Source: a virus
DNA length: 64,000 bases
IMG/VR virus record: IMGVR_UViG_3300017728_000002
Span: 1 to 64,000 of that record
Direction: 5' to 3' (one strand)
Shown: positions 5,821-64,000 of the stretch, piece after piece
Layout: every line of letters starts with the position of its first letter
How positions within the stretch are numbered: position 1 is the first letter of the stretch
The notes under the pieces: generated by a model
Told to the model about the DNA's origin: nothing
What the model saw: only the letters and a program-made list of their open reading frames with translations
Database searches by the model: none
Translations under genes and position numbers: made by a program

Positions 5821-6203
5821 GCTTTGTTTGAGATTTGATTGTGTCCAATAACCTTTAGGGGTTGCTGTAGAATGGTTCCTAAAGACAGGATCAACGCACT
5901 CATTGCAGTGTGTTGCTTTTCATTTAAAGTGTCTTTAGGGTTCATTGCTGCATCGCATCCTCCAGCATAACAAATGCCTATGCTTTGGCCGTTGTGTCCT
6001 TGCGCATGGGCTCCGACTTTGTCAATGTGCCGTCCGATATGAACGTTACCGTCTAGATCTATGAAATAGTGGTATCCCACCATATCAAAATCACGTGCTT
6101 TGTGCCACCTGTCGATGTCTTCGATGGTGACTTCACGGTTTTCAGGAGTGGCTGAGCAATGGATAACAATGGTGTGTATTGTAGAGAGTGGTCTTGTAGC
6201 CAT
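5751..6203 (-). CDS. N-acetylmuramoyl-L-alanine amidase endolysin (T7 lysozyme/PGRP type)
   Basis: Zinc amidase that cuts the bond between muramic acid and L-alanine in peptidoglycan. Signature elements are IVIHCSATP (first zinc His near residue 15), GYHYFI (Tyr), DGNVHIGR, VGAHAQGHN, SIGICYAGG, and GHNQISNKACPSFDV with the second His, the catalytic-region Lys and the zinc Cys. The 150-aa length matches single-domain T7-type amidases. I start it at ATG 6203, four bases after the stop of the upstream gene, rather than at 6260, because family similarity begins there. No signal peptide, so it needs a holin or other membrane lesion. Confidence 0.93.
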   Translation of the reverse strand: MATRPLSTIHTIVIHCSATPENREVTIEDIDRWHKARDFDMVGYHYFIDLDGNVHIGRHIDKVGAHAQGHNGQSIGICYAGGCDAAMNPKDTLNEKQHTAMSALILSLGTILQQPLKVIGHNQISNKACPSFDVQQKFLGEALLLERSVC

Positions 6204-9255: not shown

Positions 9256-10522
9256 GATATGGCGCGCATAGCGTATCGGGTGCTACTCAAAGGCAGCTAC
9301 ATTGTTTTTGCACCCTTATACAAGGGCTGTTCATGAGGAGTGTAAAAGGGGACGCCTTTGCGCCCCCTTCCACCTAACGACTTCGACCAATGACGACGAA
9401 GCCTACCTTTACCATGAGGGTGGAGAAAGAAGTAACTAAGCTATCAACACACCTATAGGGAGCTATCCTATAGTAACCTCGTGGTATACTGTGTGTCTTG
9501 CATGTGCACATACTGCTCTCCCAGTGACGTAAGCCCTGTTGTTATTGGAAAGCATACTTAGTTACTTCATTTGTATCTGTCGTAGCGTGCCTCGTCAGGT
9601 TTGCTACTAGTATTTCTAAGGTCTTCACCATTAAATAGATTTAAGCACATGCGTCCATGCACCGAGACGGTCAGTTATCTAAGCTGTTATCATTAGCTTG
9701 GTCACTAAATCCGGTTGTGTGACTCGCGGTCGTCAACCCGCCCAACAATGTCTATTCTACTTTGGTTGAAGAGGCCGATGTTGGACTGCCCCTGATGCTG
9801 TATGTAAAGGCAGCACGGCGAAACACCGCACTATATCTTCTATCAGTACTGCGTAGAGTACATCGTTGTTTCTCAGAGCTGCTAATCCTTAGGTTTGAAT
9901 AGAGCTATCTATTCCTAACTAGCATAACGTAAAACGATTGAAGACTGCCTATTCATGTTCCTTCAGCATTTGTGCGGGAGAGTGTACTGTGTCCGTAGAC
10001 GTCATAAACAGCTACACTCTCCCTAACCTGGTATACGTCAGGCTGACGTAGCAATCGAATAGATTCAGACATGAGAAGCGATTGCACCTCACATGTCCTA
10101 ATAGATAATGCACCCGAAGGCGACTTTTAGAATATGGACTGAATTGGATAACAAGGCACAGTCAAACCCCGTTTTTATAGACTTACACTATCAACACGCC
10201 TTCGAGTGATCAACTCTCCGTACCTATAATGGCAAACCCCTACTTTATCGGAGCTCCTGTCATGTCTTGCATCTAGAATACTGCTGGTCTTGGCTATATC
10301 CAGCACGTGTAAGTCCTGCCTTGTAGTAAGGCAGTTGTCGACGCAACCTCTGAATGACTTTAGAGAGTCAAACAGAGGCCACTTGTACGTTCAGGTACCA
10401 TTAGGTGATGGTTAATTTGGCTAACATCACCGACAAACCAAGAGGTGGCATAGCCTCTTATGCGTGTTTAAGTCCTGTCTAGACTACTCTCAGTTGACTG
10501 ACTCTAATCAGTCGGTTGAGAG
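9255..10522. ncRNA. Gene-free 1.27-kb stretch of dense inverted repeats, candidate large structured RNA
   Basis: No credible gene on either strand. About 20 stems follow one another, among them: 9255-9278, 9278-9315 (GGGTGC/GCACCC), 9346-9369, 9381-9401, a 12-bp perfect closing stem 9429-9440 with 9557-9568 enclosing a hairpin at 9453-9473, 9679-9701, 9713-9738, 9786-9813, 9897-9914, 9976-10023 (11-bp stem GGGAGAGTGTA), 10034-10050, 10051-10085, a 12-position stem with one non-canonical pair 10111-10122 with 10197-10208, 10282-10305, 10316-10334, 10347-10378, 10404-10431, 10440-10459, and 10487-10522. G.U-type compensation favours the plus strand at some stems (10487-10522, 9679-9701) and the minus strand at others (10111-10208, 9381-9401), so the strand is unresolved. 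The size and style recall large ornate phage RNAs such as GOLLD or ROOL; identity is not shown. Confidence 0.5.
10487..10522. terminator. Long hairpin at the 3' end of the kinase gene
   Basis: CTCTCAGTTGACTGA (10487-10501), loop CTCTAA, TCAGTCGGTTGAGAG (10508-10522). As plus-strand RNA all 15 positions pair, three of them G.U; as minus-strand RNA three adjacent A.C mismatches split the stem into two 6-bp parts. It overlaps the last codons and stop of the kinase gene, so it may end that transcript or belong to the structured region to its left. Confidence 0.45.
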
Positions 10523-11200
10523 CGTGGGGTACTCATCGGAGTCACTAACATGGTCAGTGTCTTGCCGATGGGAATCCTCTTTATCAAGTTCAGCTTGAAG
10601 CTGTCTATTTAGCGCCTCGTCACGTTCTGCTTCGACTGCGTTGTCTAAGCGGTGCTCCATCATAGCTTCGTTAAGCAGCCTGTCCTCCTCAAGGGCCTCA
10701 GCAACAGAAAGAGTAGTATCCTCATAGAAGGGAGTAACATTACCTTGCCTATCAAGAGACAAACAAAACCTATCATGCATCTTGTCTATAGTAGAGGAAG
10801 GAACATCATGGACAGAGATACCATCATGTCTGTTCTCCATGATGATGGTATGAATACGAAACTGCTGATCAGGTAGAAGCTCTTCATTGACTCGATTAGT
10901 GAAGTCAACGTAAGGCCACATCTCTTCAGTAGTGGTATTGGTGTTGTCTACAATGATGATACCGTCTGTATGCTTCATGTGCTTCATTTCATGAAGAGCA
11001 CAGATGAAGTCAGCTTGAGCTTGGGTATGGCAAGCAGCAAGCTTGGTAGCATCAAAGCAGTAGTTGCCAAAGTCATCAGTCATGAAGGTGTCAGCACTGA
11101 CGACACGCACGAAGCCCGGTGTGGACATGGCAACTAAGGTTTGAGCGAATGTGGATTTGCCTGAGCCAGGTAAACCGCGTAGGATGATTACTGTATTCAT
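10508..11200 (-). CDS. P-loop polynucleotide-kinase-like ATPase
   Basis: 230 aa. Residues 1-20 carry a textbook Walker A (LRGLPGSGKST), followed by VVSADTFM, an AxxH-type helix (LAACHTQAQADF) and IIVDNTNTTTEEMWPYV, the pattern of the T4 polynucleotide-kinase/AAA_33 family that phosphorylates nucleic-acid 5' ends or small substrates. The last 60 residues are an acidic, Glu/Asp/Arg-rich helical extension not needed by the fold. No phosphatase domain is present. The minus strand upstream of the ATG reads ACTCTCTAACCCTTAACAT. A role in RNA or DNA end repair during infection is likely but not proven. Confidence 0.85.
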   Translation of the reverse strand: MNTVIILRGLPGSGKSTFAQTLVAMSTPGFVRVVSADTFMTDDFGNYCFDATKLAACHTQAQADFICALHEMKHMKHTDGIIIVDNTNTTTEEMWPYVDFTNRVNEELLPDQQFRIHTIIMENRHDGISVHDVPSSTIDKMHDRFCLSLDRQGNVTPFYEDTTLSVAEALEEDRLLNEAMMEHRLDNAVEAERDEALNRQLQAELDKEDSHRQDTDHVSDSDEYPTLSTD

Positions 11201-14835: not shown

Positions 14836-15012
14836 ATGGAGAGTTACTCCGAATATCTAGGCGTAGGGACTAAGGTCTACAGTGTATTCCACTGTGACCT
14901 CTATACGATCAGCATTGTCCAGGACGGACAAGGCGAGCTTTTAGAAGTGAGTTGTGAGACGGATCTGCCTGTGGGAGTTAGCCCCAAGGAGTTTGACCCT
15001 TTCGAAGAGTAG
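14836..15012 (+). CDS. Hypothetical 58-aa protein
   Basis: ATG 14836 (MESYSEYLGVGTKVYSVF). Small, acidic, probably a beta-barrel-like fold with alternating strands; an SH3-like or Hfq-like size, but no motif to prove it. Overlaps the convergent 14978 gene by 35 bp. Confidence 0.5.
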   Translation: MESYSEYLGVGTKVYSVFHCDLYTISIVQDGQGELLEVSCETDLPVGVSPKEFDPFEE

Positions 15013-15358
15013 GGATCTCTACTTCTTTGCCATTCACCATTAAGGTATGCTTGGCTTTTCCGTGGTGCTGGTTGTAGTTGTTTTTCCAGCGTGCCACTTC
15101 TTGCTTCTTGTGCAAGTACTCTGCTGCCATCTTAGATCGGTAGTCAACCAGGCTACTCATGATCATTTCTCCTTCTTCATAGAAGATGGTAAGATCTCCC
15201 CACGCCACTTTTGCTCTTACGATACACGAAGTGTCTGACCGGTTCTCCACTTCCATGGATTCGATTAAGTCAGCAGGTACACCATTTTGTCTGCACCCTT
15301 CTTCAAGGATCTGTTCAATGGCGTATGACTCGTTGGTTGCAAGCGCTTTAGAAGGCAT
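14978..15358 (-). CDS. Hypothetical 126-aa protein
   Basis: Begins MPSKALATNESYAIEQILEE; helical N-terminus, then a beta stretch (CIVRAKVAWGDLTIFYEEGE), a Lys/His-rich helix and a basic tail (VEIPTLRKGQTPWG). No family recognised. It reads away from the integrase, from the attP side. Confidence 0.6.
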   Translation of the reverse strand: MPSKALATNESYAIEQILEEGCRQNGVPADLIESMEVENRSDTSCIVRAKVAWGDLTIFYEEGEMIMSSLVDYRSKMAAEYLHKKQEVARWKNNYNQHHGKAKHTLMVNGKEVEIPTLRKGQTPWG

Positions 15359-15454
15359 ATAGCTAAGATACAGAAGAACCTTCTGTTATAGTGAGGTGTT
15401 TTGTAGACGAGATTTCAATAAGTGTGCGTTACCTTCGCATCCCGAGTCACTGGG

Positions 15455-15514
15455 AAAAGTTCCACGGTTATTCCAAAAAGTTCCTAGAATTCATTTGAAA
15501 CGAACCTGGAACTT
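15455..15514. repeat. Arm-type integrase site candidates, left of attP core
   Basis: AAAAGTTCC at 15455-15463 and AAAAAGTTCC at 15475-15484 are direct repeats; GGAACTT at 15508-15514 is the inverted form. Repeated short sites flanking a tRNA-derived core are expected for the arm-binding domain of a lambda-type integrase. Confidence 0.55.
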
Positions 15515-15587
15515 ATTTAACCCAGCGGCAGAGGAAGCGTAAGTAAAGTGTCTAAGTTGTTGAAATACAGGATGTAACACACACCCT

Positions 15588-15630
15588 GCGAGAATAGCTC
15601 AGTTGGTAGAGCACAACCTTGCCAAGGTTG
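15588..15630 (+). other. attP: attP core: 5' half of tRNA-Gly(GCC)
   Basis: GCGAGAA, TA, GCTC-AGTTGGTA-GAGC, A, CAACC-TTGCCAA-GGTTG: a perfect acceptor-5' strand, D-arm and anticodon arm with anticodon GCC. Downstream (TAGTACAG...) there is no variable loop, T-arm or acceptor-3' strand, so the tRNA is not complete. A 43-bp tRNA fragment 87 bp upstream of a tyrosine integrase is the classical sign of a phage attachment site; the host target would be a tRNA-Gly gene. Confidence 0.85.
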
Positions 15631-15697
15631 TAGTACAGATAACCTAAGAGATTCAATAAGAGACACATACAGAAACAGCGATTTTACTCCATACCCT

Positions 15698-15716
15698 AAA
15701 GTTCCCAAAAAGTACC
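15698..15716. repeat. Arm-type integrase site candidates, right of attP core
   Basis: AAAGTTCC at 15698-15705 and AAAAAGTACC at 15707-15716 (one mismatch to the left-hand repeats) lie immediately before the integrase start codon, so integrase binding here could also regulate its own gene. Confidence 0.45.
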
Positions 15717-16790
15717 ATGCTTACGGTGTCAGAACCTTCTAAAGGAAAGCGTTGGAAAATTCGGATTACGGATATGGAAACCAAGAAATCCGTGGTTTTT
15801 GTGAGTGGCAGAGTCGTAGGTGACACCACCCGCCCCCAAGATTTAAGCGAAGACGGCAAGGAGAAGTACTTCTACTGGCTCAAACGCGCGCTAGAAACTC
15901 GTATTTCCACCGGCTGGACTCCTAAACAGTTTGCAGGAAAGCCTAAAAAGTCTGTTCAACGCACAGCCTGGGAGCTTGCAGTGGATCAAACTTTGAAGAC
16001 GATCAAAGGATTAGATCCTTGGTATGTGAAGCAAGTCCATCGACACGTAAATAGGATGATGGAAGACTTTGAAACGTTTCCTTCTCAAGACGAGTTTACT
16101 CGATTCATCAAAAAGCGTTTCAATACAGGCCGAACAACCATGCACATGGCCAAGCGTCGCTTCAGTGCGTTCTTCACCCATATGATCGATATGGAGTTGA
16201 TTGACTACAATCCTGCAGAGAAGATCAAAGTCAGAACTCCGCAACCCACACGCAACCATGTTTACACCAAACAACAGCTCAGGGATCTCTTTGCTTATTT
16301 AAAAGAGCACAGGCCTACCTTATATGTATGCTGCTACCTCACTTACAAACTTTTCCTACGGCCCCACAAAGAGATTCGGCTTTTGAGGTGGGAATACTTT
16401 GATTGGGACAACGAAACAGTAAACATCCCTCCTAAGTATTCTAAGAACCGCAAGCCTCGTACTCTCCCATTAGACCAGGAGACCATATATGAGTTAAAGT
16501 GGTGGGGAGTAGAAACCGAAGGCTTTGTTATGGGAAGGGAGTTCAACCCAGACTACTTTAAAACTCAGTGGGGCAGGTTACGCAAGACATATAAGCTTGA
16601 ACCCTACCAAACATTGTATAGTGTTCGGCACACTGCAGCTTGTTTGTTCTACAACGAACACAAGAACATCCATCAGTTAATGTTGGTTATGGGGCATGCC
16701 AGTACAGCCAGTACGTTGAATTACTTAAAAAATGCTCCTGTCCAACAGGCCGGCGTAGATGAGCTGAAAGTATTGAGCTTAAAGGAATAG
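15717..16790 (+). CDS. int: Tyrosine integrase
   Basis: 357 aa. The N-terminal part (to about 80) has the arm-binding character, a SAM-like core-binding domain follows (about 85-175), then the catalytic domain: Arg215 (FLRPHKEI), Lys243 (SKNRKPRTLPL), Arg304 in YSVRHTAA, His327 (MGHAS) and nucleophile Tyr336 (TLNYLK). The box II His usually three residues before Arg304 is Tyr301 here. It performs site-specific integration at attP 87 bp upstream. The ATG at 15717 directly follows an arm-type repeat. A terminator follows at 16816. Confidence 0.95.
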   Translation: MLTVSEPSKGKRWKIRITDMETKKSVVFVSGRVVGDTTRPQDLSEDGKEKYFYWLKRALETRISTGWTPKQFAGKPKKSVQRTAWELAVDQTLKTIKGLDPWYVKQVHRHVNRMMEDFETFPSQDEFTRFIKKRFNTGRTTMHMAKRRFSAFFTHMIDMELIDYNPAEKIKVRTPQPTRNHVYTKQQLRDLFAYLKEHRPTLYVCCYLTYKLFLRPHKEIRLLRWEYFDWDNETVNIPPKYSKNRKPRTLPLDQETIYELKWWGVETEGFVMGREFNPDYFKTQWGRLRKTYKLEPYQTLYSVRHTAACLFYNEHKNIHQLMLVMGHASTASTLNYLKNAPVQQAGVDELKVLSLKE

Positions 16791-16815
16791 TTCATTTTAA
16801 TATCCATAAATTTTT

Positions 16816-51226: not shown

Positions 51227-54200
51227 ATGTCTGAAAACAACACTACTCCTGATTCTTCTTTTGAATCTCGTCAGGAAGACGCAGGGCTTACGCCTAAATC
51301 CAACATCCGTTTTGGCTTAAAACAAGACCCGCTCTATCAAGAGCAAGGGATGTTTCAAAGCCGTATGACCGAAAATCCGCAGGTCAAAGGAATAGACGTA
51401 CAGAAGTATGCCCCTTACACAGGGTACATTACCCACCTTGGCACGCGTGATGCTATGCGGGCACGTGGTCAAAGCGTTGCAGAAAAGTGGGGCAATGGAA
51501 TTTATCAAGCTGTAGTAGGCGAAGTAGTTGGGGGCAGTCTTCAAGGCTTAGGAGCCTTAGGTATGCTGGTTGACAGTGAGAAGAACTTTCTTTATGAGCT
51601 AGGTGAAGCCATCAATGAAGGAGCAAGAGACGCTACTCCTATTTATAAGCATAGCGACAAAGCGTTTGCGTTCAATGATGCTGGTTGGTGGGCCAGTAAT
51701 CTGGGCAATATTCTTAGCACTGTAAGTATGTTGGTGCCAGGTATGGCAGTGTCCAAAGGTGCAAGTCTAGCTGCTCGAGGTCTTGTTGCAGCAGGTAAAG
51801 CTGGCAAGGCTGTTAAAGCAGGAAAAACCATTGGCAAAGCTGGAAAGGTTGCAGGTAAGGCTGCAGGTGAAGCTGCTGACGTTACTGCAGATGCTATGAA
51901 AGCTTCTGTGCGCGCACAGCGGCTAGAAAAAACCATGCAAACAGTTGCAGGTGGTTATGGCATGCGTCACGCTGAAAACATTCGTGAAGGCGTAGATGTC
52001 GCTGTCCAAGCTGAGGAAGAGTTTATGCAAGATGGGCGGGCTTTAGAAGATTTTAAAGGGACTGTTGCGTACGATCAATACCTCAAGGATCACGATCAGA
52101 AAGCGCCTATGAACAAGCAAGAGCTTGCTTCGTATGTCGGAGGTCAAGCAGCAGTGCGTTCGTATCAATTTAACATGTTGAATCTGGTATTTGATGTGTT
52201 TCAAATGGGTACAATTTTTAAGCCCTTTAAAGCTGTAACGCGCGGTCAAGGTGTAGGTAAAGTAGGAGCTGCAGCCGCTGGTAAAGCAGCCGCTGGATTG
52301 GATAAAGGAACGCGTGCTACTCGAGCTTTAGAGAAAAGCAAAGGATTCTTAACTGAAGTGGGCAAAGCTGCTACAGAGGGCATAGAAGAGTCAATCAACT
52401 TTATGGGAAGTGGCGAGGGCATGGCCCGTGCAGAATATTTAAGAGGGGTAGAGACTGGAAGCTTTGGAGAACGTCTTGACGATTACTTCCACGACTCGCA
52501 CTTGTATGAAAGTGCTTTCTGGGGTTTCCTTGGAGGAGGAGTGTTTCAAGGTCTTGGGTCCATTATGGGCAAGAAGCAAGATGCTGCTATGACTTCTTTG
52601 CTTCGCCAGCAAGAAACCTTGGTTCGCGAAAGCGCAGAACTAGCCAAGGCTGAGAAAAGTGGCGATACAGAAAAAGCCAATCAAATTCGAGCCAGGGTAA
52701 TGGCTGATTTGGGCATCCGTGCTAGCCAATCTGGACGTGTAGATCAATTGCTAGATCAGCTCAATAGCGATGACTTCATGAAGCAGCTCCAAGAGCAAGG
52801 TCTGTTGGGCGAAAAGAGCATTGAAGAAGCTCGTAATGAACTGATTGAAGGCGTATTAAAGCAAGAAAAAGACTACAAGAAGATTGCTGAAGTTGCGGAA
52901 GAATACGGGTTGAGTAGTCAGGAAATGTTTGTCTTGCTTAAACAGCAGAACTCGTATGATGCTGGGTTAAAAAGCATTGCTGAGAAGCTTGAAGCAATTG
53001 ACGATGCAAGCATTACTGAAGATCAAAAGCTTGCAGCTAAGTTTCAGCTGCGCGATTCGTTGGTTGAGCTTCAGAAGAAGGTAAAAAAGGAAAAGGGCAA
53101 AGACTCAAAGACTCCGTTTGGAGCAGAGTTAAAAGCGTTGCAGGAAGAGCTTAAAGACAAGGAGAAGCCTGCTGAGTTTGAGAAACTGCTGACCTACGAG
53201 GCTTTCAATCAAGCAAGGTTGTTGGCCGAACAAACCAGGTTAAAGCGAAAGCGTGCTGAGCTTACTACTGAACAGTCTCTTGCATATACTCGAACTACAG
53301 TAAATGCGTACAACAAGAATCAAGAAAAAGTCATTGCTGCTAGTTTCAAAAAGAGAGTTGCTGAAGAAGAAAATCTAGATATTCTCAATAAACTTCTTGA
53401 ACAGGCCAAACGAAATAAAGCTAAAGACCAGGAAATACTAATATCTGAGCGCATTGCTGAATTGAAAAAAACCAATGCTGACAAAACAGATGCAGACAAA
53501 GCTCAAGAGGAAAATGAAGAAGGAGGTACTCCTGTACCTAAAGATGACTCTACTGAAGAAAATGAGCCTCCTACAGAAAATGAACCTTCTAAAGAGAATG
53601 AGCCTCCTGAAGAGAATGATCCTGATGTAAGTGATGTTCTACCTGAAGGAGTAGTTCTCGAAGATGATGACGAGGTAGACTACACCCTTGCTTATAGAGA
53701 GCCTTACGCTGATGGTTCTCCTTTTGATTTTGGTTCATTAACCAATCAGGAACGAAGGTTTTTAGATGCTTTAGATAACTTAGATACCGCTGAAACAGTG
53801 GAGAAAGCTCAAGCCCTTGTTTCTTTTGTACGCAACTACATTTTAAAGCAGCAAGAAGAAGGGAAGCCAATTAAACGCAAGTTTGATGGTAAAGTGGTTG
53901 ACCAGGCTATTGCATATTTAGCAGAGGCTGAAAAAACTCCACCAGCTGCACCACAAGATTCTGCACCACAAGATTCTGCACCACAAGATCCTACTTCGGA
54001 CCCACCTACAGACCTACCTACAGATGACTTAGAGAATAGTACAGTCAAGGCTTTGAAAGCCATTGCTCGTCAAGAAGGGTTGACAGGTTATTCTAAGTTG
54101 AACAAGGCAGAGCTAGTTGCTGCTATTCGTGCACATCGTGAGCAAGCTACTTTGTTTCCTGAAAATAAAGTAACTCCACCTACAGATGAATCGCCTGCTG

Positions 54201-57200
54201 AAAAGAAACGGAGAGAATCGCAGCAAAACCGTGTTGAGAAGCACAGCAAAGAACTTTATGAAGCGTTAGAAAGCTATGCAGAAGCTGTAGCTAATAGAGA
54301 TGCACTTCAAGATTCTAAGAATGCAGATAGTAAGGAAGCTGTTGCTGCTGAACTAGCCGCAGACAAAGCGGCAATGAAAGTGTTAAATGCCTTAAATAAT
54401 CTTACTAGTCACAGTCTGTTGTCTCAACAGAACAAAGTAGAAAGCTACATCTCTTCAGACTTACGTGAGTATATGGAGCTAGCTACAGAGACTTTAGAAC
54501 AAGATGGTTACACTTCAGATCATGTAAAACCTGGTCAAGTATATGACGAAACGTTGTCGGTAGATGTGGAGATTGTTAACGACGAAACTTTAGAGCCAGG
54601 AGTAGAACTTATTCAAAAAATTAATCAACCCGAAATACGTAAAAAAGGAAAGGTGATACAGCGTGGCCAAGTTGTTGTTGTACAAGGGCCTTTGCTGAGT
54701 AAGCCAGTTATTGAACCAGAAACAGTTGAAGCTCCAGAAGGTCAGATCAAGATGATCATGAATGACTTGATGGAAGCGTTTTTGCAGCAGATGCAAATTC
54801 GCACAAGCGTAACCATGCCTACTACGCGTGTTAGGGAACACGCTCTTATTGAAGGGACTCGCTTGACTTTAGAAGGGCCGGTGGCAGAGCAGTATGAAGC
54901 GCTCATGTTTGCCTTGACTAACCCGTCAGCATCGGTTACAATTCGCATTTCAGACAATCAAGTAGAGGTCAAAAACCCCATTTACAAAACATCGGTAAAC
55001 AACAAGCTTGGGGTCAAATCTTTGACGCGAAAGACTGTTGGGTCAAAGACGTATACCTACGAAAACGAAGAAGACAACTCTCCTGACTACGAGGTTGTCG
55101 TTGAGTATCAGGGTAAAACTGTAGTCATTGGAAATGTACCTAGGGTGGGTACGTTGTTGAAGCAAGCTTCGCGTCTTCAAAATCAATACCGCAATCAGCC
55201 AACAGGCGATGACGCAGACGCAAACCCATACTGGAGAAACGCATATGCAGATGCCAACCTCAATGCATTGCAAGCCATTAGACATGCAGATGCGATAGCT
55301 CTATTTAGAAAATATCTGGATTCTCAAGACAGCGGATCTATCTCGTTTACTGGGTTGTCTGAGCAAATTGCCCTAGACGGCAGCTTTAAGCGCGGTAGTC
55401 TGCTTCGTCCTAGCGATCAAATGGATACGCTAAATATGCATCCAGAAGTCACAGATGCCATAGACGAACACGGGCTGTGCGTCATGATGACTGATCCTTC
55501 TAGTGGAGAGCCTTATCTGTTGAATCTAAAAACGGGTTTAAAGACTGCAGTACCATACCAAGATGGTGTGATGGCTATGAATGCTCAAGCAGGGACTTAT
55601 GCGTTTAAAAACCAGTCTAACAAGATCTCTAGTACCGGAGCAGTTTTCATTCCTATCCGAGATCCCAACTCACCTTTAAAGCCAATGTGGGTTCGCATGC
55701 CCGACATGACTTTGAAAGAGGCCAATCGTACCGACTTTGTAAGCAACATCTTGTACGGACCAGGCACTTCAGAACAAAAGTTTGAATTGCTTCGAAGTGT
55801 AATGTCTACACCGCCTCCAAGTGTGACATCTGAAAGTCAGATCATGGAAGGGTTCACAGGCGCAGCTTTTATAAGCGGACCGTCTAATGGACAACCTCGA
55901 TTGGTTATTCTCAAAGACAGGAAGATTGTCATGGACTTTAATCCAGATGGCACGCCTCGCACTGAGATTCAAAAAGCTGTTCTTGAGCAGCTGAAGTTTA
56001 GGCTAGATGCAAAATCGCCCGAGCTTGCCAGCTACGAAAAAGAAGGAAAACGAGACGAGGAAACTAGGCAAACTTTAAAGTCGTTAGCTCAAAGCATTAA
56101 GCAAAACGGTAGAATGCCTATTGCTCCCGTTGTTAAAAAAGACAGTGCGGGTAATGATGTAATCATAGGCTACCACCATCCTGTTCCTGCTGCACGATTT
56201 GAACGAGACAGAGAAGCGCAATCTCAAAACCAACTGTTCAACCCAGAGGCTCAGAGTACCATGCTGCCTATTGCCATTGATATGGCACGTCTTCAAGCTC
56301 AAAACCCAGAAGCTCCTGCATCACCAGATACAAAACCTACAGACACTTCTGATCCGAAGAAGTCCAACGAAAAAGGGGGGGAGTCGACTGATTTTTGGAA
56401 TGAATCAGATGACGGTGCAATGTTTATGACTGTAGAAAAGGCTTTAGCAAGCGACTTTTACGCCATGTCTACCTCTAAAGATCAGTTAGAAGCGGAGTTG
56501 TGGCTTGCTAAAAACCTGCCTCACGTTCCGTTTCGAAGAGTCAAGGGCCTTATTGAACGTGGCGGTGTTACCGCATACGGTATATGGGAACAGGGTATGA
56601 TCAGGGTCAGTGATATATCTGTAGTAGGTACAGAGTATCACGAAGCCTTGCACGCTGTAATGGACACATACCTTTCTCCTAAGCGAAGAGCAAAGATTAT
56701 GGCTGAAGCCCGTGCTAAGTATGGAGACTTAGGGCCTATCAAGCTAGAAGAAAAGATTGCTGAGGCTTTTCGAGAGTACATGCTAACGGAAGGAAAAAGC
56801 ATGACAGAGAAAAGTGCACTGCGCCGGTTTTTCTCTGAGATACTGGCATTGGTTCAAGCCATGTTCCAAGGACAATACCGTACTCGGCAGTTGATGCAAA
56901 ACATCAACAGAGGGAGGTATGCGTATAAGCCTAGCCAGCGCTCTAAAAACTTTCTGACTAAGTTCAGTAAGGTTCCTGCCTTTGATGCTGCTGAAATGAG
57001 CGAGCTAGAGCAGGTCATGCCTTTTTTGGTAAACTACATCCTTAAAGACATTCGTGAAGCATTTGTAGGGAACAATCCAAAAGACGTGCTTATGCGACGT
57101 TATGGAAGGGAAGAAGACGCCCAAGTACTTGAAGGATTGCTCCAAACGATAGCAGAGATTAAAGACTTGTCTGTAGAATCAGATGAAGACGGAAATACAA

Positions 57201-60200
57201 TAGAAATTCAGCGAGAGAAAAAGAAGCTCATAGCTGAAGGTATTATTCGCGTAATTTTTGATAGTCGTGGGTTGTTCCAATACATGATTAAGTCTTCAAG
57301 TAGAGCGTCTGAAGAAAGAAAACTAGAGATCTATGATCGGTTAGGTCATAACGAAGAAGTACTGGTTGAACACTTCAGTACAAACCCAAGAGTGCAGCGC
57401 ATGATTATGCAAGCAATTGCAATTGATGCCAGCACAGGTACCACGGACATAGAGCAGAACTTCTCTGCTAGCATAGCAGAAATCAATCCTATGGATAAGG
57501 TTCCTGCCAGTATCAAGAACTTGATTTCAAGAACCATTTACATCCCTGGAGACAGAAGTGGTCGCTTGATTGAAACAATCTTAGGTAATCAAGGTACCGA
57601 AGCAGCTCTTGAAGCCATTGCAGAAGTGTCAGGCACTGACGTAGATAAATCTGATGCCTTCAGTCGATTTGGCTTGCCTCGGTTTTTACAGTTTGAAACG
57701 GTGTATCCTTTCCTGTTAAACCAGTTGAGTTCGCTGCCTTCATACGAAGCTATGGAAACCCGGATGCTAGAGTTGAGCGTGTACAACCCAAGCTTGGCAT
57801 CTATTGTTTTGGCATTGCGTAAAGACGCTGAGCCAGGCACACTTACAGAACTGCAAAAACAATTCTATGTGGGCATGAAACGCGCAAGCTCAGAAGAGCT
57901 GAACGTTTCTTTGGAAACCCAGTATGATGAAAGAGTTGAACGGAAATTTCAAGTACCTGTAGTAAAAGATGAGTTCATTTATGAACCGGCCTGGCATTTG
58001 GTCCAACGTAACAAGGAGGCTGTTTACAACGCCATCCTTCAGTTTACTCCAGCGGAAAAGGAAAAGGTCCTAAATGCTTTAAGTGCGTTGGCAAAACAGC
58101 GTAACGAAACTCCTGAAGTAAGAGTTAAAACCATTAAAATTTTGGTTAGGACTTTTCAAAAACTTGAGTTTTCTACTATGGACCCTTCTGCATTGGCTAA
58201 CGCTATGCATGTTATGTCTAATAATGAATTAGGCGGGTTAGCTGATATGCTTGAACGTCTCATTCTTGCTGGAAATGAAGCGCAGACTTCAGCAATACTT
58301 AGGGAGGTGGTACGAATTATGAAGCTTGCTGACGCAGACATGGGCGCAGTTCAAAGCTCGTATATGTCTAATCTGAAAACCAAGTATGCTCACGTCAATC
58401 CTTCTTATTTAACCGAAGAATTAGACCGCTTAAAAAGCGCCTTTAAAGAAGAATACCTTAAAGAAAGGTTTGCCCACAATGCTCATTTAGAAGAGAGTAT
58501 GTGGCATATTATGTTGGATGAAGAGTCTTTAACCTATCGCAGGTTTGGACAACTGGGCCCGCATGCATACACCGATATGGATGTAGCGCAAAGGCTTGAG
58601 TATGACCTTCTAGCATTGTTTAGAATGGGTAAAAATGCTCAAGGACGTCAGATCAGAGTTACGGGGTACTCTGCAATCCCTACACCTAGCGATGCAACTG
58701 GATCGTTTATGGTCAGTAACGACTTTGTACATTATCCTGAAAACGTTAAAAACAGGATTTTAGCCAGTATCTACGACGCAGAGACACGTAAAGACGTAAC
58801 CCATATGTCTTTGCCTATTGATCGTAGTAAAGTAGACATCAATAGCATAGAGTCTAAAGCCGAGTATATGCGTGCTTTGCTAGAGCAAGAAGCCGCGGCA
58901 TTGCTGTCTATTCCAGAGTTCAAAGAAGTCATAGACAAGCTACAAGTTCCTTTAGGGTATGGACCAGTCGAGGGACGCAGTCGAGATGAGGGCCGCGTTA
59001 CGATGGTCAACTCATATGTAGCCGCTACATATGTATCCAATTGGAACGTGTCTAATTGGATGGGTGGAACCATTGATCACTTTGGAGGAGACGTTACCAA
59101 GTATCAAAAGCGTTTTAAGCAGATTATGAGCCCTGGGCAAACCAGCGCAGATAAAGGCACGTTTAGAAACGTAACCATTGAAGATCCCGTAGTTTTTGAA
59201 GACTGGGCAACAGAAGTAGAGTACTCTGACAATGGCAAACCGGTTAAGAACGCGGACGGAACTTACCGTCGTATTCCATCTGCCATTGATCGTGCTGATG
59301 CACAGAGCTATGTAACGCTAGACTTTTGGGAGCGGATGCTTTCTTCTCATGGAGAGCTTACAGACTATAAGAAAGCGGTCATAGAAAAAGCCCGTAAAGG
59401 AGAGGCTCTAAGTGTGTCTGAGCGTTCAGTATTTGCTCCATACAAGCCCTTCTACTTTGGATGGGTTCAAGGCCAGCCGCACCAACTTAAAAACTCTGTC
59501 ATCCCACTTTTACCACCGGTCAAAGGTCAAGCTCCCATTAGCGTAGAACTAGAGGCTATGCGTAAGTGGATGGTACACCCAGATAATAAAGTAGATCAAA
59601 TCACTTTGAAGTCTGCGCACAAGGTGGGTGTGACCAGCAAGGCTACTTCTATGTTTCAGGATGGCAAGTTCAAAGCACCAGAGCCTGGGTACACTCAGTA
59701 CGACTTGCCCATGGAGTTCCACCGCAATCAAGTGTCTATTACAGAACACAACAACCACAATGGAACAGTAGGCTTGGGTACTCAAACAGGTCCAATCATT
59801 ATGTCTAACCTCAGGAATTATGAGGGGTTAGGGGAAGTACACATCCAAAAGTTGCTTAAGACAGAGCAACGCATGATGAACATGAAACTCAAGGAGCTTA
59901 AAGGCAAGCTCTTTGTACAAGGCACAGAATTAGGCAAGAACGGCGAGGAAGATGTAAGCAAGCGCACAGTTCCAGACGTAGCTCGTGTACGGCAGTATGT
60001 GCTAGACAACGTGCGTGATGATGTGCATCCAGCAGTTCTGGAAATTCTAAGCTCTCCCTTGGCTTCAGCAGGACGCATTAGTCCTTTGGTTGCTTTTGCG
60101 GTAAACCAAACTTTAGCAGCTGCCGTTCAAAAGGACTTTAAGAAGCAGAAAGTAACAGGCGGTATGCAGGTACAAATCTCTGATCTAGGCCATACCAATC

Positions 60201-63200
60201 CTACCACAGATGCGGACTTAAAAGGCATGCGTGTAGTAGGAAGTCAGCAAGAAGTTGAAGGTCCTTACACTTGGGACGACTCTATGGCTACAGATTTAAT
60301 TGTGGGGATGAATAACCGAGAGTTTGTAGTTGTAAAACTTGGAGAATCCCCAAAAACAGGTCGAGAACTAAATGCTGATGATTTTTTAAATGGACTTAAA
60401 GAAGGTTTTGAAGTCATAGACATGCATGGTAAAAAGCCTATGACCGTAGGCTTAGATTCAGCCATGGCTTCGTTAATGAAGCGAGATTTTGAAAAATGGT
60501 TAACTACTAAGAAAAATCTTAAAACACGTCCACAATCATTAGTTACTCCAGAATATATCAGTGACTATTCAGACCCAAAGCGAGAGCTGGCTCGCTACGT
60601 AAAAGAGCGTCAAACGAATAGAAAAGACTTTGAAGTTGATCCTGAACTAGAGTTGGCTTATGAATACTATCGATCTAAAGAGATTGATTCAGATAGGAAT
60701 AACGAGGCTTTTACGTCTTCTTCTTCTTCTCTGCCTACAGGACCAGAAAAAGTTGTAATGGCCGAGGTCAAGATGAACAGAAAGTTCTTGCCTAAGCAAT
60801 ACAGGGAAATGAGCATTGAAGAGATTCGTGCCATTGACCCTACACTGCTTGAAGTCATGGTCTATCGTGTTCCTGCAGAAGGAAAGAATTCTATGGCCAT
60901 GTGTAAGGTGGTGCAGTTCTTGCCTTCAGGTCAAGACGGCATGGTCATCCCCGCAGCTTTTGTAGCTCAAATGGGATCAGACTTTGACATTGACAAGCTC
61001 TTTGTGAATTGGAAGAAGGTGCCTAGGGAAGGCAGAGAGCTCAATGCTTACGACCGAGCAGCCAATAAGTTTTTTGATTTACAGAAGGATGTGCTGATGA
61101 ATCCTGAAGTGGTAAAGACAGAAGTGCTTGTACCACAGGGCTTTGAAACCATTAAGGCGTTTCGTACGGAGATGGCTACTGCCCGCAGGAAAGGAGGGGT
61201 TTCAGACATTGATGTCTTTGCTCAAAGACGTCCGTATAGTGCTTTGACTCACTTGCAATTGTGGTCAGACAATGTAGCAGGCATTGGATTGAAAGGCATT
61301 GCTGCCAACAACAATACGTTTTGGATGAAAGTCCAACGTCACAACATGCAAGTGGAAGGAATTCCTATGAAGGATATGCCGCTTGAGTTGATGCAATGGA
61401 ATGCAGAAGCAGTAGCTGCTTCTATGGACGGCGCAAAAGACCCTGTCTGGGGTACTATGGGCATTGACCGCAAGAACTTCTCGTTCTTCATGTACGAGTG
61501 TACCATGGGGTACATGCGGGCAATGAAAGAGAACCCAAGTGCAGACAAGGTTAAAACCTTGAATAAAGCTCGAAATGAAGCATTAGCGGCAGCAACTGAT
61601 TCAGATGTTATGCAAGCCATGACCACACGGGTTAATGACTTTAATGCAGAAACAGAAAAGACAGACAACGTAAAACGGTATCAGGCTTATTTAAAGCAAG
61701 AGGCATACCGGGCGTTGAAAGACTTGACCCGTGTCAGTGAGATGAAAATCAATAAGGAGTTGATTGATCTTCTTGCAGCTAAAGAGCCCGTTCTAGATAA
61801 TTATAACCTTACTCTAGACGCTGAAGGCAATATTATTTTAGACAGCGATGGTAACCCAGAGTTGCAAGCGGTAAAAGACGCCAAAGGAAACACTCTTCCA
61901 ACCATGGGAAAGGCTTATGTCAATGCTCCTGTCATTAAAGGCGCTTTGGATATTGCCACTGCTTCAGAGTTGCTGATGAGTGGCGGTATGGGGATTCACT
62001 ATTACCGCACTGTAGGTCGTTATAACGGCATCAGTTTCCCGCAATACTGCGCGGTTCAAACCTTTAAAGCAGCTGATGAATTTGTAGAAGGCAAGCGCGC
62101 AGAGGTCATGGGTGAGAGAAGCGTCAGTGAGCGTTTTAGAGAAGTGGACCTAGAGGATGTTCAGTCTTGGAACATGCGTCATTGGATCGTTTGGTTGAAT
62201 ACATCTGACGAAGGCCGAGCAATTCGAGACGACAAAGACAACGCGTTCTTGCGTAAGATGCTCTTGCATATCACGGTAGGCCGAGCCTACGAAGTAAACT
62301 ACAATCGTTACGATCGGATAACGCCAATCCAGCTTAACGACCCTATCAAAGCAGAAGAGTTTCAAAAGGCTTGGGAAAACACATTGACTCCGCCTTTATC
62401 CTATGAAGGGTCTGTTCACTACCCTTCTGAGTTTGCCAAAGCCTTAGTTCGCTACGAAGCTGCACGCAGTGGGTGGAGACGAGGGTCTTCAACCTTCACG
62501 CAGTTCTTGCCTACGGAGATTGTAAAAAATGTAAGCGGAGAGGACGCTACATCCTTGCAGATTGCAGCTCATGCTGTGTTGGATTCTAGGGTAGAGTCCG
62601 GTACAGAAAAAATGGCTTTGCTCAGCAACAGGCCTATGCGCTATGGTAAGCACACTTACGTGACTTTGCCTGGCGAAAACAGGCGGACAAAAGTGACCAC
62701 TCCTGTTTTGATGCTTGGGTTCAGAGGCATGTCATCTATAGATGCTATTGCAGGTGAGTTGCAGGTCAACCAATCCACTGTAGAGGAAGAGATAGCTGAG
62801 TACAAAGCCAAGCAAAAGAAGAGTCAAAGCCTTGAAGCATTTGGAGATATTGCTTCATCTACTACTACTTCTGAGCGCATTGCTATGCTTCAGAGTCGGT
62901 TTGCTTCTTATGGTATTAAGGTAAGAGTGGAGTTTGATTCCACTTTAGAAGGTGCCGGTGATGTGCAGTACGATAAGGAGTCTGGGGTCATTCGACTCCA
63001 CCCTGATCGCATGAAAAGCGATACGGTCTTGCACGAGTTTGGTCACATCTACATTGAGATGTTGGGGTTTGAAAACCCTGCTGTTCAGCAAGCCATTGAA
63101 GAGTTGCGCAACACTGAGCTGTATCGAGAGGTAGCAGAGATGTATCCACACTTAAGTCAAAGAGACTTAGATATGGAGGTTTTGGCTACAGCTATAGGTC

Positions 63201-64000
63201 TTGAAGGAGACGCCATCTATGACAAGGCTAAGAACCCCAACAAGCTTCGTACCCTGATCAATAAACTCTTTAGGGCTTTAGGTAAGTTGTTTGGTATCCA
63301 GCCTAACACCGCTCGGGAGTTGGCACGTAAGATGATTGAAGGGTCTGATGTTAGGACCAACAACTTAAAGTCATTCCGTGCAGAGCAACGATTGAAGAAA
63401 GGTTTGGATGCTCAGACCCTAATGATTGAGGTAGCTGATGAGATTATGAACCGCATCGATCATATGCGGCGATTGGGTGCCACTACCGAGGAGCAGCAAG
63501 TGCTTCTAGACAGCTTGCAAGAGGACTCTAGTATGTTTAGAGAAGTAGCAGAAAGTGGAGCTACAGCTGTATTGGATTCTCTGGTGGTTGCAATGTCAGA
63601 CTACTTGCAAAAAACTACTGAGTTTATCTCTCATGCGGAAACATATGTAGACACTTCTTCAGCAGCCGGGCTTAAAAAGCAAGACACTGAATTGTTGAAC
63701 CAGGCGTATCAGCTGAGTCAAGTGCTGAATACGTTTTCTCAAACGTTTGCCAGCTTTGATAAAGACACTGTAGATGTAGATTTTGATCAGCAAGAGCGGT
63801 TTGCAACAACCAACAAAGCTTTTGTGGAAATGGCAGGTCCTGTTCAGGTTATGCAAACCCGCTTGACCAGCTTGGTACGTAAGATGCTGAACAAAAAGCT
63901 GGTGGCTAATTCTAGTAACCCTAGGATCAAAGAAGCCATGGAAGCAGGGTTGGACATTTTCTCTTTGGCTCAAACTGAATTTGGCGACATCACTACCGAT
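51227..64000 (+). CDS. Giant virion protein: RNA polymerase (DFDID) plus two zincin domains, partial
   Basis: ATG 51227 opens a frame read as open to the window end: 4258 codons with no stop. N-terminus: Ala/Gly/Lys-rich membrane-active region (about residues 150-230). Residues about 560-850 are coiled-coil and Glu-rich; a Rho_N/SAP-like motif (STVKALKAIARQEGLTGYSK) lies near 940. First zincin: HEALH at 1805-1809 with downstream EEKIAEAF. RNA polymerase: MGSDFDIDKLF with DFDID at 3252-3256, the DxDxD metal-binding signature of crAss-like virion RNA polymerases (phi14:2 gp66 type). Second zincin: HEFGHIYIEML, His 3936. Expected to be injected to transcribe early genes; the zincins may process it or act on host targets. 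Confidence 0.85.
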   Translation, partial: MSENNTTPDSSFESRQEDAGLTPKSNIRFGLKQDPLYQEQGMFQSRMTENPQVKGIDVQKYAPYTGYITHLGTRDAMRARGQSVAEKWGNGIYQAVVGEVVGGSLQGLGALGMLVDSEKNFLYELGEAINEGARDATPIYKHSDKAFAFNDAGWWASNLGNILSTVSMLVPGMAVSKGASLAARGLVAAGKAGKAVKAGKTIGKAGKVAGKAAGEAADVTADAMKASVRAQRLEKTMQTVAGGYGMRHAENIREGVDVAVQAEEEFMQDGRALEDFKGTVAYDQYLKDHDQKAPMNKQELASYVGGQAAVRSYQFNMLNLVFDVFQMGTIFKPFKAVTRGQGVGKVGAAAAGKAAAGLDKGTRATRALEKSKGFLTEVGKAATEGIEESINFMGSGEGMARAEYLRGVETGSFGERLDDYFHDSHLYESAFWGFLGGGVFQGLGSIMGKKQDAAMTSLLRQQETLVRESAELAKAEKSGDTEKANQIRARVMADLGIRASQSGRVDQLLDQLNSDDFMKQLQEQGLLGEKSIEEARNELIEGVLKQEKDYKKIAEVAEEYGLSSQEMFVLLKQQNSYDAGLKSIAEKLEAIDDASITEDQKLAAKFQLRDSLVELQKKVKKEKGKDSKTPFGAELKALQEELKDKEKPAEFEKLLTYEAFNQARLLAEQTRLKRKRAELTTEQSLAYTRTTVNAYNKNQEKVIAASFKKRVAEEENLDILNKLLEQAKRNKAKDQEILISERIAELKKTNADKTDADKAQEENEEGGTPVPKDDSTEENEPPTENEPSKENEPPEENDPDVSDVLPEGVVLEDDDEVDYTLAYREPYADGSPFDFGSLTNQERRFLDALDNLDTAETVEKAQALVSFVRNYILKQQEEGKPIKRKFDGKVVDQAIAYLAEAEKTPPAAPQDSAPQDSAPQDPTSDPPTDLPTDDLENSTVKALKAIARQEGLTGYSKLNKAELVAAIRAHREQATLFPENKVTPPTDESPAEKKRRESQQNRVEKHSKELYEALESYAEAVANRDALQDSKNADSKEAVAAELAADKAAMKVLNALNNLTSHSLLSQQNKVESYISSDLREYMELATETLEQDGYTSDHVKPGQVYDETLSVDVEIVNDETLEPGVELIQKINQPEIRKKGKVIQRGQVVVVQGPLLSKPVIEPETVEAPEGQIKMIMNDLMEAFLQQMQIRTSVTMPTTRVREHALIEGTRLTLEGPVAEQYEALMFALTNPSASVTIRISDNQVEVKNPIYKTSVNNKLGVKSLTRKTVGSKTYTYENEEDNSPDYEVVVEYQGKTVVIGNVPRVGTLLKQASRLQNQYRNQPTGDDADANPYWRNAYADANLNALQAIRHADAIALFRKYLDSQDSGSISFTGLSEQIALDGSFKRGSLLRPSDQMDTLNMHPEVTDAIDEHGLCVMMTDPSSGEPYLLNLKTGLKTAVPYQDGVMAMNAQAGTYAFKNQSNKISSTGAVFIPIRDPNSPLKPMWVRMPDMTLKEANRTDFVSNILYGPGTSEQKFELLRSVMSTPPPSVTSESQIMEGFTGAAFISGPSNGQPRLVILKDRKIVMDFNPDGTPRTEIQKAVLEQLKFRLDAKSPELASYEKEGKRDEETRQTLKSLAQSIKQNGRMPIAPVVKKDSAGNDVIIGYHHPVPAARFERDREAQSQNQLFNPEAQSTMLPIAIDMARLQAQNPEAPASPDTKPTDTSDPKKSNEKGGESTDFWNESDDGAMFMTVEKALASDFYAMSTSKDQLEAELWLAKNLPHVPFRRVKGLIERGGVTAYGIWEQGMIRVSDISVVGTEYHEALHAVMDTYLSPKRRAKIMAEARAKYGDLGPIKLEEKIAEAFREYMLTEGKSMTEKSALRRFFSEILALVQAMFQGQYRTRQLMQNINRGRYAYKPSQRSKNFLTKFSKVPAFDAAEMSELEQVMPFLVNYILKDIREAFVGNNPKDVLMRRYGREEDAQVLEGLLQTIAEIKDLSVESDEDGNTIEIQREKKKLIAEGIIRVIFDSRGLFQYMIKSSSRASEERKLEIYDRLGHNEEVLVEHFSTNPRVQRMIMQAIAIDASTGTTDIEQNFSASIAEINPMDKVPASIKNLISRTIYIPGDRSGRLIETILGNQGTEAALEAIAEVSGTDVDKSDAFSRFGLPRFLQFETVYPFLLNQLSSLPSYEAMETRMLELSVYNPSLASIVLALRKDAEPGTLTELQKQFYVGMKRASSEELNVSLETQYDERVERKFQVPVVKDEFIYEPAWHLVQRNKEAVYNAILQFTPAEKEKVLNALSALAKQRNETPEVRVKTIKILVRTFQKLEFSTMDPSALANAMHVMSNNELGGLADMLERLILAGNEAQTSAILREVVRIMKLADADMGAVQSSYMSNLKTKYAHVNPSYLTEELDRLKSAFKEEYLKERFAHNAHLEESMWHIMLDEESLTYRRFGQLGPHAYTDMDVAQRLEYDLLALFRMGKNAQGRQIRVTGYSAIPTPSDATGSFMVSNDFVHYPENVKNRILASIYDAETRKDVTHMSLPIDRSKVDINSIESKAEYMRALLEQEAAALLSIPEFKEVIDKLQVPLGYGPVEGRSRDEGRVTMVNSYVAATYVSNWNVSNWMGGTIDHFGGDVTKYQKRFKQIMSPGQTSADKGTFRNVTIEDPVVFEDWATEVEYSDNGKPVKNADGTYRRIPSAIDRADAQSYVTLDFWERMLSSHGELTDYKKAVIEKARKGEALSVSERSVFAPYKPFYFGWVQGQPHQLKNSVIPLLPPVKGQAPISVELEAMRKWMVHPDNKVDQITLKSAHKVGVTSKATSMFQDGKFKAPEPGYTQYDLPMEFHRNQVSITEHNNHNGTVGLGTQTGPIIMSNLRNYEGLGEVHIQKLLKTEQRMMNMKLKELKGKLFVQGTELGKNGEEDVSKRTVPDVARVRQYVLDNVRDDVHPAVLEILSSPLASAGRISPLVAFAVNQTLAAAVQKDFKKQKVTGGMQVQISDLGHTNPTTDADLKGMRVVGSQQEVEGPYTWDDSMATDLIVGMNNREFVVVKLGESPKTGRELNADDFLNGLKEGFEVIDMHGKKPMTVGLDSAMASLMKRDFEKWLTTKKNLKTRPQSLVTPEYISDYSDPKRELARYVKERQTNRKDFEVDPELELAYEYYRSKEIDSDRNNEAFTSSSSSLPTGPEKVVMAEVKMNRKFLPKQYREMSIEEIRAIDPTLLEVMVYRVPAEGKNSMAMCKVVQFLPSGQDGMVIPAAFVAQMGSDFDIDKLFVNWKKVPREGRELNAYDRAANKFFDLQKDVLMNPEVVKTEVLVPQGFETIKAFRTEMATARRKGGVSDIDVFAQRRPYSALTHLQLWSDNVAGIGLKGIAANNNTFWMKVQRHNMQVEGIPMKDMPLELMQWNAEAVAASMDGAKDPVWGTMGIDRKNFSFFMYECTMGYMRAMKENPSADKVKTLNKARNEALAAATDSDVMQAMTTRVNDFNAETEKTDNVKRYQAYLKQEAYRALKDLTRVSEMKINKELIDLLAAKEPVLDNYNLTLDAEGNIILDSDGNPELQAVKDAKGNTLPTMGKAYVNAPVIKGALDIATASELLMSGGMGIHYYRTVGRYNGISFPQYCAVQTFKAADEFVEGKRAEVMGERSVSERFREVDLEDVQSWNMRHWIVWLNTSDEGRAIRDDKDNAFLRKMLLHITVGRAYEVNYNRYDRITPIQLNDPIKAEEFQKAWENTLTPPLSYEGSVHYPSEFAKALVRYEAARSGWRRGSSTFTQFLPTEIVKNVSGEDATSLQIAAHAVLDSRVESGTEKMALLSNRPMRYGKHTYVTLPGENRRTKVTTPVLMLGFRGMSSIDAIAGELQVNQSTVEEEIAEYKAKQKKSQSLEAFGDIASSTTTSERIAMLQSRFASYGIKVRVEFDSTLEGAGDVQYDKESGVIRLHPDRMKSDTVLHEFGHIYIEMLGFENPAVQQAIEELRNTELYREVAEMYPHLSQRDLDMEVLATAIGLEGDAIYDKAKNPNKLRTLINKLFRALGKLFGIQPNTARELARKMIEGSDVRTNNLKSFRAEQRLKKGLDAQTLMIEVADEIMNRIDHMRRLGATTEEQQVLLDSLQEDSSMFREVAESGATAVLDSLVVAMSDYLQKTTEFISHAETYVDTSSAAGLKKQDTELLNQAYQLSQVLNTFSQTFASFDKDTVDVDFDQQERFATTNKAFVEMAGPVQVMQTRLTSLVRKMLNKKLVANSSNPRIKEAMEAGLDIFSLAQTEFGDITTD
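53948..53992 (+). repeat. 15-bp tandem repeat in the giant gene (APQDS units)
   Basis: GCACCACAAGATTCT repeated twice plus a third copy ending in GATC, encoding APQDS-APQDS-APQDP. A flexible linker between the helical N-terminal part and the Rho_N/SAP-like motif. Confidence 0.75.

Follow-up and report, generated by a model that had tools for sequence, protein, structure and literature searches.

A crAss-like phage with a putative attachment site built on the 5' half of a host tRNA-Gly gene, predicted to hand the tRNA promoter to the integrase

From exact identity to host tRNA genes, conservation in a second phage and recombination in silico, we propose that positions 15359-15716 of the window, i.e. 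the whole stretch of 64,000 nucleotides analysed here (positions 1 to 64,000 of IMG/VR record IMGVR_UViG_3300017728_000002), form the attP of a tyrosine integrase targeting the anticodon loop of Bacteroidota tRNA-Gly(GCC) genes, with the tRNA rebuilt behind phage DNA and the host promoter passed to int, a reading to which we give a probability of roughly 0.8 (Table 1). Int presumably recombines attP with the host attB, the crossover taking place within the 7-bp anticodon loop. In the rebuilt tRNA, the 5' half would then come from the phage and the 3' half from the host, with transcription likely starting in the phage DNA that now precedes it. At the other junction, the phage right arm and int would come to lie behind the host promoter and the host 5' half, with the integrase gene intact and, in the integrated state, probably read from the host tRNA promoter.

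Table 1 Features of the proposed attachment site and its surroundings, in window coordinates.
Feature	Position	Strand	Remarks
126-aa ORF, divergent from int, same cassette	14978..15358	-	75% identical in second phage (L006)
Integration cassette: 126-aa ORF, attP and int, ~1.8 kb	15013..16795		borders approximate
Left arm-type sites (putative): AAAAGTTCC 15455-15463, AAAAAGTTCC 15475-15484, inverted GGAACTT 15508-15514	15455..15514		
tRNA-Gly(GCC) 5' half, nt 1-43, within attP	15588..15630	+	exact match to host genes; identical in second phage
Anticodon stem-loop CAACC-TTGCCAA-GGTTG, proposed core-type Int sites around 7-bp overlap 15619-15625	15614..15630	+	
Right arm-type sites (putative): AAAGTTCC 15698-15705, AAAGTACC 15709-15716	15698..15716	+	
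Tyrosine integrase, 357 aa	15717..16790	+	PF00589 E 6e-14; phrog_1 integrase E 1e-30

The tRNA half reads GCGAGAATAGCTCAGTTGGTAGAGCACAACCTTGCCAAGGTTG and is identical to nucleotides 1-43 of tRNA-Gly(GCC) genes at 15 loci in 14 of 395 sampled Bacteroidota genomes, with a complete tRNA-Gly(GCC) called by ARAGORN at every one of these loci. Exact agreement over 43 bp with the beginning of a tRNA greatly exceeds what chance would give. Host identity stops at 15630, the last base of the anticodon stem, and from nucleotide 44 the phage departs from the tRNA (TAGTACAGA in the phage versus GGGTCGCGA in the host); the phage bases 5' of tRNA nucleotide 1 do not resemble the host flanks. The 3' half is absent from the phage site, and ARAGORN calls no tRNA gene in the phage. 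The integrase gene starts 86 bp 3' of the tRNA half on the same strand, and its product also matches the HP1 integrase (PDB) weakly (E 0.005). These observations bear out the preliminary description, in which the 43 bp had been taken as the 5' half of a tRNA-Gly(GCC) through the anticodon stem, lacking a 3' half and followed directly by an integrase gene. In a search of 2.9 million viral contigs, the exact 43-bp copy was found in one further phage, a relative carrying it at the same place; with a relaxed pattern, the viral contigs among the matches listed carry intact or contig-end-cut tRNA-Gly, besides this phage and its relative. The two contig ends share a 123-bp direct terminal repeat, by which the record of 85,481 bases closes to a circle of 85,358 bp. 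The phage genome being complete and circular, the site carrying the tRNA half is attP rather than attL or the end of a prophage.

The core is marked by a perfect inverted repeat (15613-15621 / 15623-15631), and an inverted repeat around 7 bp is the usual geometry of tyrosine recombinases using anticodon loops, as reviewed in PMC8371274. The boundary at 15630 is where the outer edge of a core-type site is expected. Five AAGTTCC-type repeats (AAAGTTCC and variants) bracket the core; AAGTTCC occurs in 4 copies within 358 bp versus 0.08 expected from the genome rate, a density equalled in 0 of 2000 shuffles, and these repeats are most simply explained as arm-type integrase sites, which we regard as putative. 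Those on the left are retained in the second phage (L002) save one change in the inverted copy, and those on the right, which reach the int start codon, are both retained there. Host tRNA identity over the stem-loop, an adjacent tyrosine recombinase gene and flanking arm-type repeats are thereby all found at this site, as in an attP at an anticodon loop, and the earlier proposal of an attP with a 5' half and an anticodon-loop core is supported by both the sequence identity and its boundaries.

Further evidence comes from the second phage (L002/L006), the integrase of which is 85% identical to the one described here. The att flanks of the two phages are 67% identical overall (left 66%, right 70%), and the tRNA half is identical at 43/43 positions, including 26/26 of the bases outside the anticodon arm. 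At the flank rate, the probability is 3e-8 for 43/43 and 3e-5 for the 26 outer bases, with sites taken as independent and only two phages compared. Since the 26 outer bases are dispensable as core-type sites and required in a working tRNA, selection on the rebuilt tRNA is favoured, which suggests that these bases are kept for tRNA function and that the rebuilt tRNA matters to the phage. The same data bear on the idea that the tRNA half is a remnant of host recombination or a decayed phage tRNA instead of an attachment site. This would be in line with an integrated form not being found in the genomes searched, but we consider it highly improbable, as the half begins exactly with tRNA nucleotide 1 and stops exactly where the anticodon stem does, is fully conserved inside diverged flanks, and has arm-type repeats around it and int adjoining.

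The attP appears to belong to a larger unit. In three phages with terminases 86-89% identical (L187, L188, L192), the genes flanking the unit lie ~100 bp apart without it, which shows the 126-aa gene, attP and int to be one cassette; judging from this comparison, it was either gained in this phage or lost in the three others. The cassette is known from two or three phages. No Pfam, NCBIfam or PHROG match was found for the 126-aa ORF, and its structure model, of moderate quality, gave no significant fold match; an excisionase is possible but unsupported. Neither a recognised repressor nor a recognised excisionase was detected among the tested ORFs near the cassette.

To derive the junctions, attP was recombined in silico with attB of three hosts at three crossover points. 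A complete tRNA-Gly arises only at the junction with phage left-arm DNA upstream and the host 3' half downstream, and the other junction consists of the host promoter, the 5' half, the right arm and int. The geometry foreseen in the preliminary description, with the host promoter and 5' half leading into int and the phage 5' half joined to the host 3' half, is thus reproduced, and the predicted promoter exchange follows from this layout. In the 14 host loci with native upstream DNA, the tRNA-Gly promoter takes the form TTG-N19-21-TAxATTT(A/G), 13 to 46 (mostly 32 to 36) bases before the tRNA. With a matrix built from and scored on these same 14 loci, so that the contrast is somewhat flattering, the host promoters score 14.3-24.9, and the left-arm maxima of 2.2 for this phage and 6.3 for L002 do not exceed chance. 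Accordingly, a host-type promoter was absent by matrix scan from 15530-15587, the region that the preliminary description had suggested testing for promoter activity. Strong host-type sites across the phage genome are not above the number in the shuffled genome; the phage as a whole being poor in such sites, its genes seem to use other promoters, which makes the left-arm negative weak. A generic sigma-70 scan gave 2 matches versus 2.7 expected, and a candidate phage-specific promoter motif, TTTGGCATA, was dropped because its copies were too few. A gene with this D-arm and GCC anticodon is single in 12 of the 14 host genomes, and hence a lysogen would rely on a phage promoter or on read-through for this tRNA.

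On the integrase side, a terminator-like hairpin is absent between 15588 and the int start. It is possible, if rather doubtful, that the 86-bp right arm (15631-15716) contains a separate promoter for int, in which case integration would meaningfully alter only the promoter of the tRNA. A promoter of a type outside the host matrix could sit in this arm, where the best matrix score is 4.1 (chance rate, 1.5 per kb); against this, a consensus promoter is absent in both phages, and the putative arm-type sites fill the 19 bp that lead up to the start codon.

Most integrating elements leave the tRNA with its promoter (PMC8371274), and the 5'-half layout is unlike theirs, as had been noted at the outset. 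The attP described here is of a rare but already documented kind. In T7-like cyanophages, attP motifs match the first half of tRNA-Leu, and integration occurs but stable lysogens do not form (PMC8776855); in P-SSP7 we read a tRNA-Leu 5' half, without a 3' half, at 5859-5897. P-SSP7 and S-TIP37 (PMC8776855) resemble this phage in having int adjacent to a tRNA 5' half in an otherwise lytic-type phage. They differ in the tRNA used, in the phage group and in the position of attP, which lies 3' of int and 5' of the phage RNA polymerase gene. In P-SSP7 (L269:5859-5898), the tRNA half is located between int and the RNA polymerase gene, and integration would place the host tRNA promoter before the polymerase gene, whereas in this phage it would face int. 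The pTN3-like integrases of Thermococcales (PMC5495485, PMC8371274) likewise use a 41-bp attP with a tRNA-Leu 5' half including the anticodon, and pTN3 separates tRNA-Leu from its original promoter (PMC5495485); these elements are archaeal, with att inside an integrase gene that is broken on integration, unlike the int gene here, which would remain intact. In common with the cyanophage and pTN3 kind of element, this phage carries the 5' half without the 3' half, and in silico the tRNA is rebuilt behind element DNA. Compared with the documented 5'-half cases considered here, the novel aspects appear to be the intact int on the host-promoter side and the crAss-like setting.

Two further systems share single aspects of the proposed mechanism. 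In ICEKp1, taken here together with similar ICEs, experiments showed that the integrated element transcribes int from the host tRNA promoter, as is predicted for this phage, and that the excised form uses a different promoter (PMC13023037); ICEKp1 integrates at the 3' end of tRNA-Asn, so that the tRNA retains its own promoter. As the layout of ICEKp1 is ordinary, control of int by a host tRNA promoter in the integrated state alone also occurs outside 5'-half sites. In Fionnbharth-type mycobacteriophages (PMC10865867), integration into a host tRNA likewise obliges the phage to provide tRNA function, but there the host tRNA is destroyed and replaced by a complete phage tRNA; the present phage encodes no complete tRNA, and the host gene is rebuilt in silico. 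Among bacterial examples the site may be a clean one: a single crossover is predicted to swap both the promoter of an often single-copy host tRNA and that of the integrase.

A giant reading frame, the portal, the terminase and the major head protein mark the phage as crAss-like. Flavobacterium phages of the Fpv group carry terminases 39% identical to its own over 96%, and the 158 records matched also include crAssphage and Bacteroides phages; PHROG matches for this set of proteins are to phrog_6681, phrog_6547 and phrog_11589. RIIA/RIIB, a primase and a helicase are also present. One reading frame of ~5,100 aa spans 51227-64000 of the window and continues into L004 to about base 2574; crAss-like phages are known to have giant virion proteins of this kind. 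The isolates crAss001 and crAss002 are without lysogeny genes and form no lysogens (PMC8042965), and the present data place an intact attP-int cassette in the crAss-like lineage.

Relatives were collected by terminase (80 fetched), and contigs of 50 of them, many being fragments, were tested for PF00589, with a match in four (L006, L198, L247 and L253). L198 has the same integrase, in a contig that starts inside the gene. The L247 and L253 integrases share 57% identity with one another, and blastp gives neither of them a significant match to the one described here. In L253 (2500-3792), a tyrosine integrase adjoins a tRNA-Asn 3' half on the opposite strand, of which 53 bp are exact to a host (L268), without a 5' half. 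L253 thereby resembles this phage in clade, in int lying upstream of the same gene block and in having a tRNA half next to int, and differs in the half used, its strand relative to int and its integrase. In L247 (3660-5216), a complete tRNA-Gln(TTG) lies just upstream of a tyrosine integrase, with a host-like TATCTTTG element before the tRNA; this tRNA may serve as a replacement, as known from tRNA-dependent lysogeny, or else be part of an attP that contains the entire tRNA. Neighbouring phages of the clade, as far as their sequences tell, have different tRNA designs at a similar genome place. With the cassette in two or three phages and unrelated integrases at other tRNAs, this clade allows 5'-half sites to be compared with 3'-half sites in a natural setting.

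The preliminary description had suggested looking for this integrase beside a split tRNA-Gly in Bacteroidota. None was found among 84,980 genomes with a pattern broken after nucleotide 43, nor among 129 genomes from the order to which one matching host belongs; the eight pattern matches in the larger set turned out to be intact tRNAs, each carrying a variant base at nucleotide 44. A terminase relative was likewise not found in the host order, in a search run without a positive control. Bacterial relatives of the integrase are too distant to indicate the same att, and the best one in the host order is at a contig end and adjoins an unrelated gene.

With a likelihood that we place a little under even, the attP is functional but integration is transient or rare, in an essentially lytic phage that forms no stable promoter-swapped lysogen, a view compatible with the proposed attP. 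Lysogens are absent from the searched genomes, crAss-like relatives are mostly without an integrase, a host-type promoter for the rebuilt tRNA is lacking while its gene is mostly single-copy in the hosts, and S-TIP37 provides a precedent in a T7-like cyanophage whose attP also holds a tRNA 5' half. Conversely, the outer tRNA bases kept in two phages suggest that function of the rebuilt tRNA matters, and missing lysogens are weak evidence, as genome collections hold few strains per species. Under the proposed attP mechanism, a further, rather improbable, option is that the phage takes the tRNA hostage: the only tRNA-Gly(GCC) gene would come under a non-host-type phage promoter beside the Int arm sites, and its strong native promoter would move to int, tying tRNA dose to Int binding and excision. 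If true, loss of the tRNA promoter could explain the lack of stable lysogens in 5'-half phages such as S-TIP37.

A candidate prophage at a 5' half in one genome of the host order (G145) was rejected, as two complete tRNA-Gly genes flank the element and its integrase is a different one. This integrative element (C4, ~394.5-413.5 kb; L166:1487-2773, L167:400-473), located between two complete tRNA-Gly(GCC) genes, carries a type III restriction-modification-like pair, and the host promoter is missing from the DNA upstream of the tRNA-Gly(GCC) copy that adjoins its divergent integrase. Elsewhere in the window of the present phage, positions 10508-11200 on the minus strand encode an AAA ATPase similar to polynucleotide-kinase families (phrog_2071, phrog_505, PF13671).
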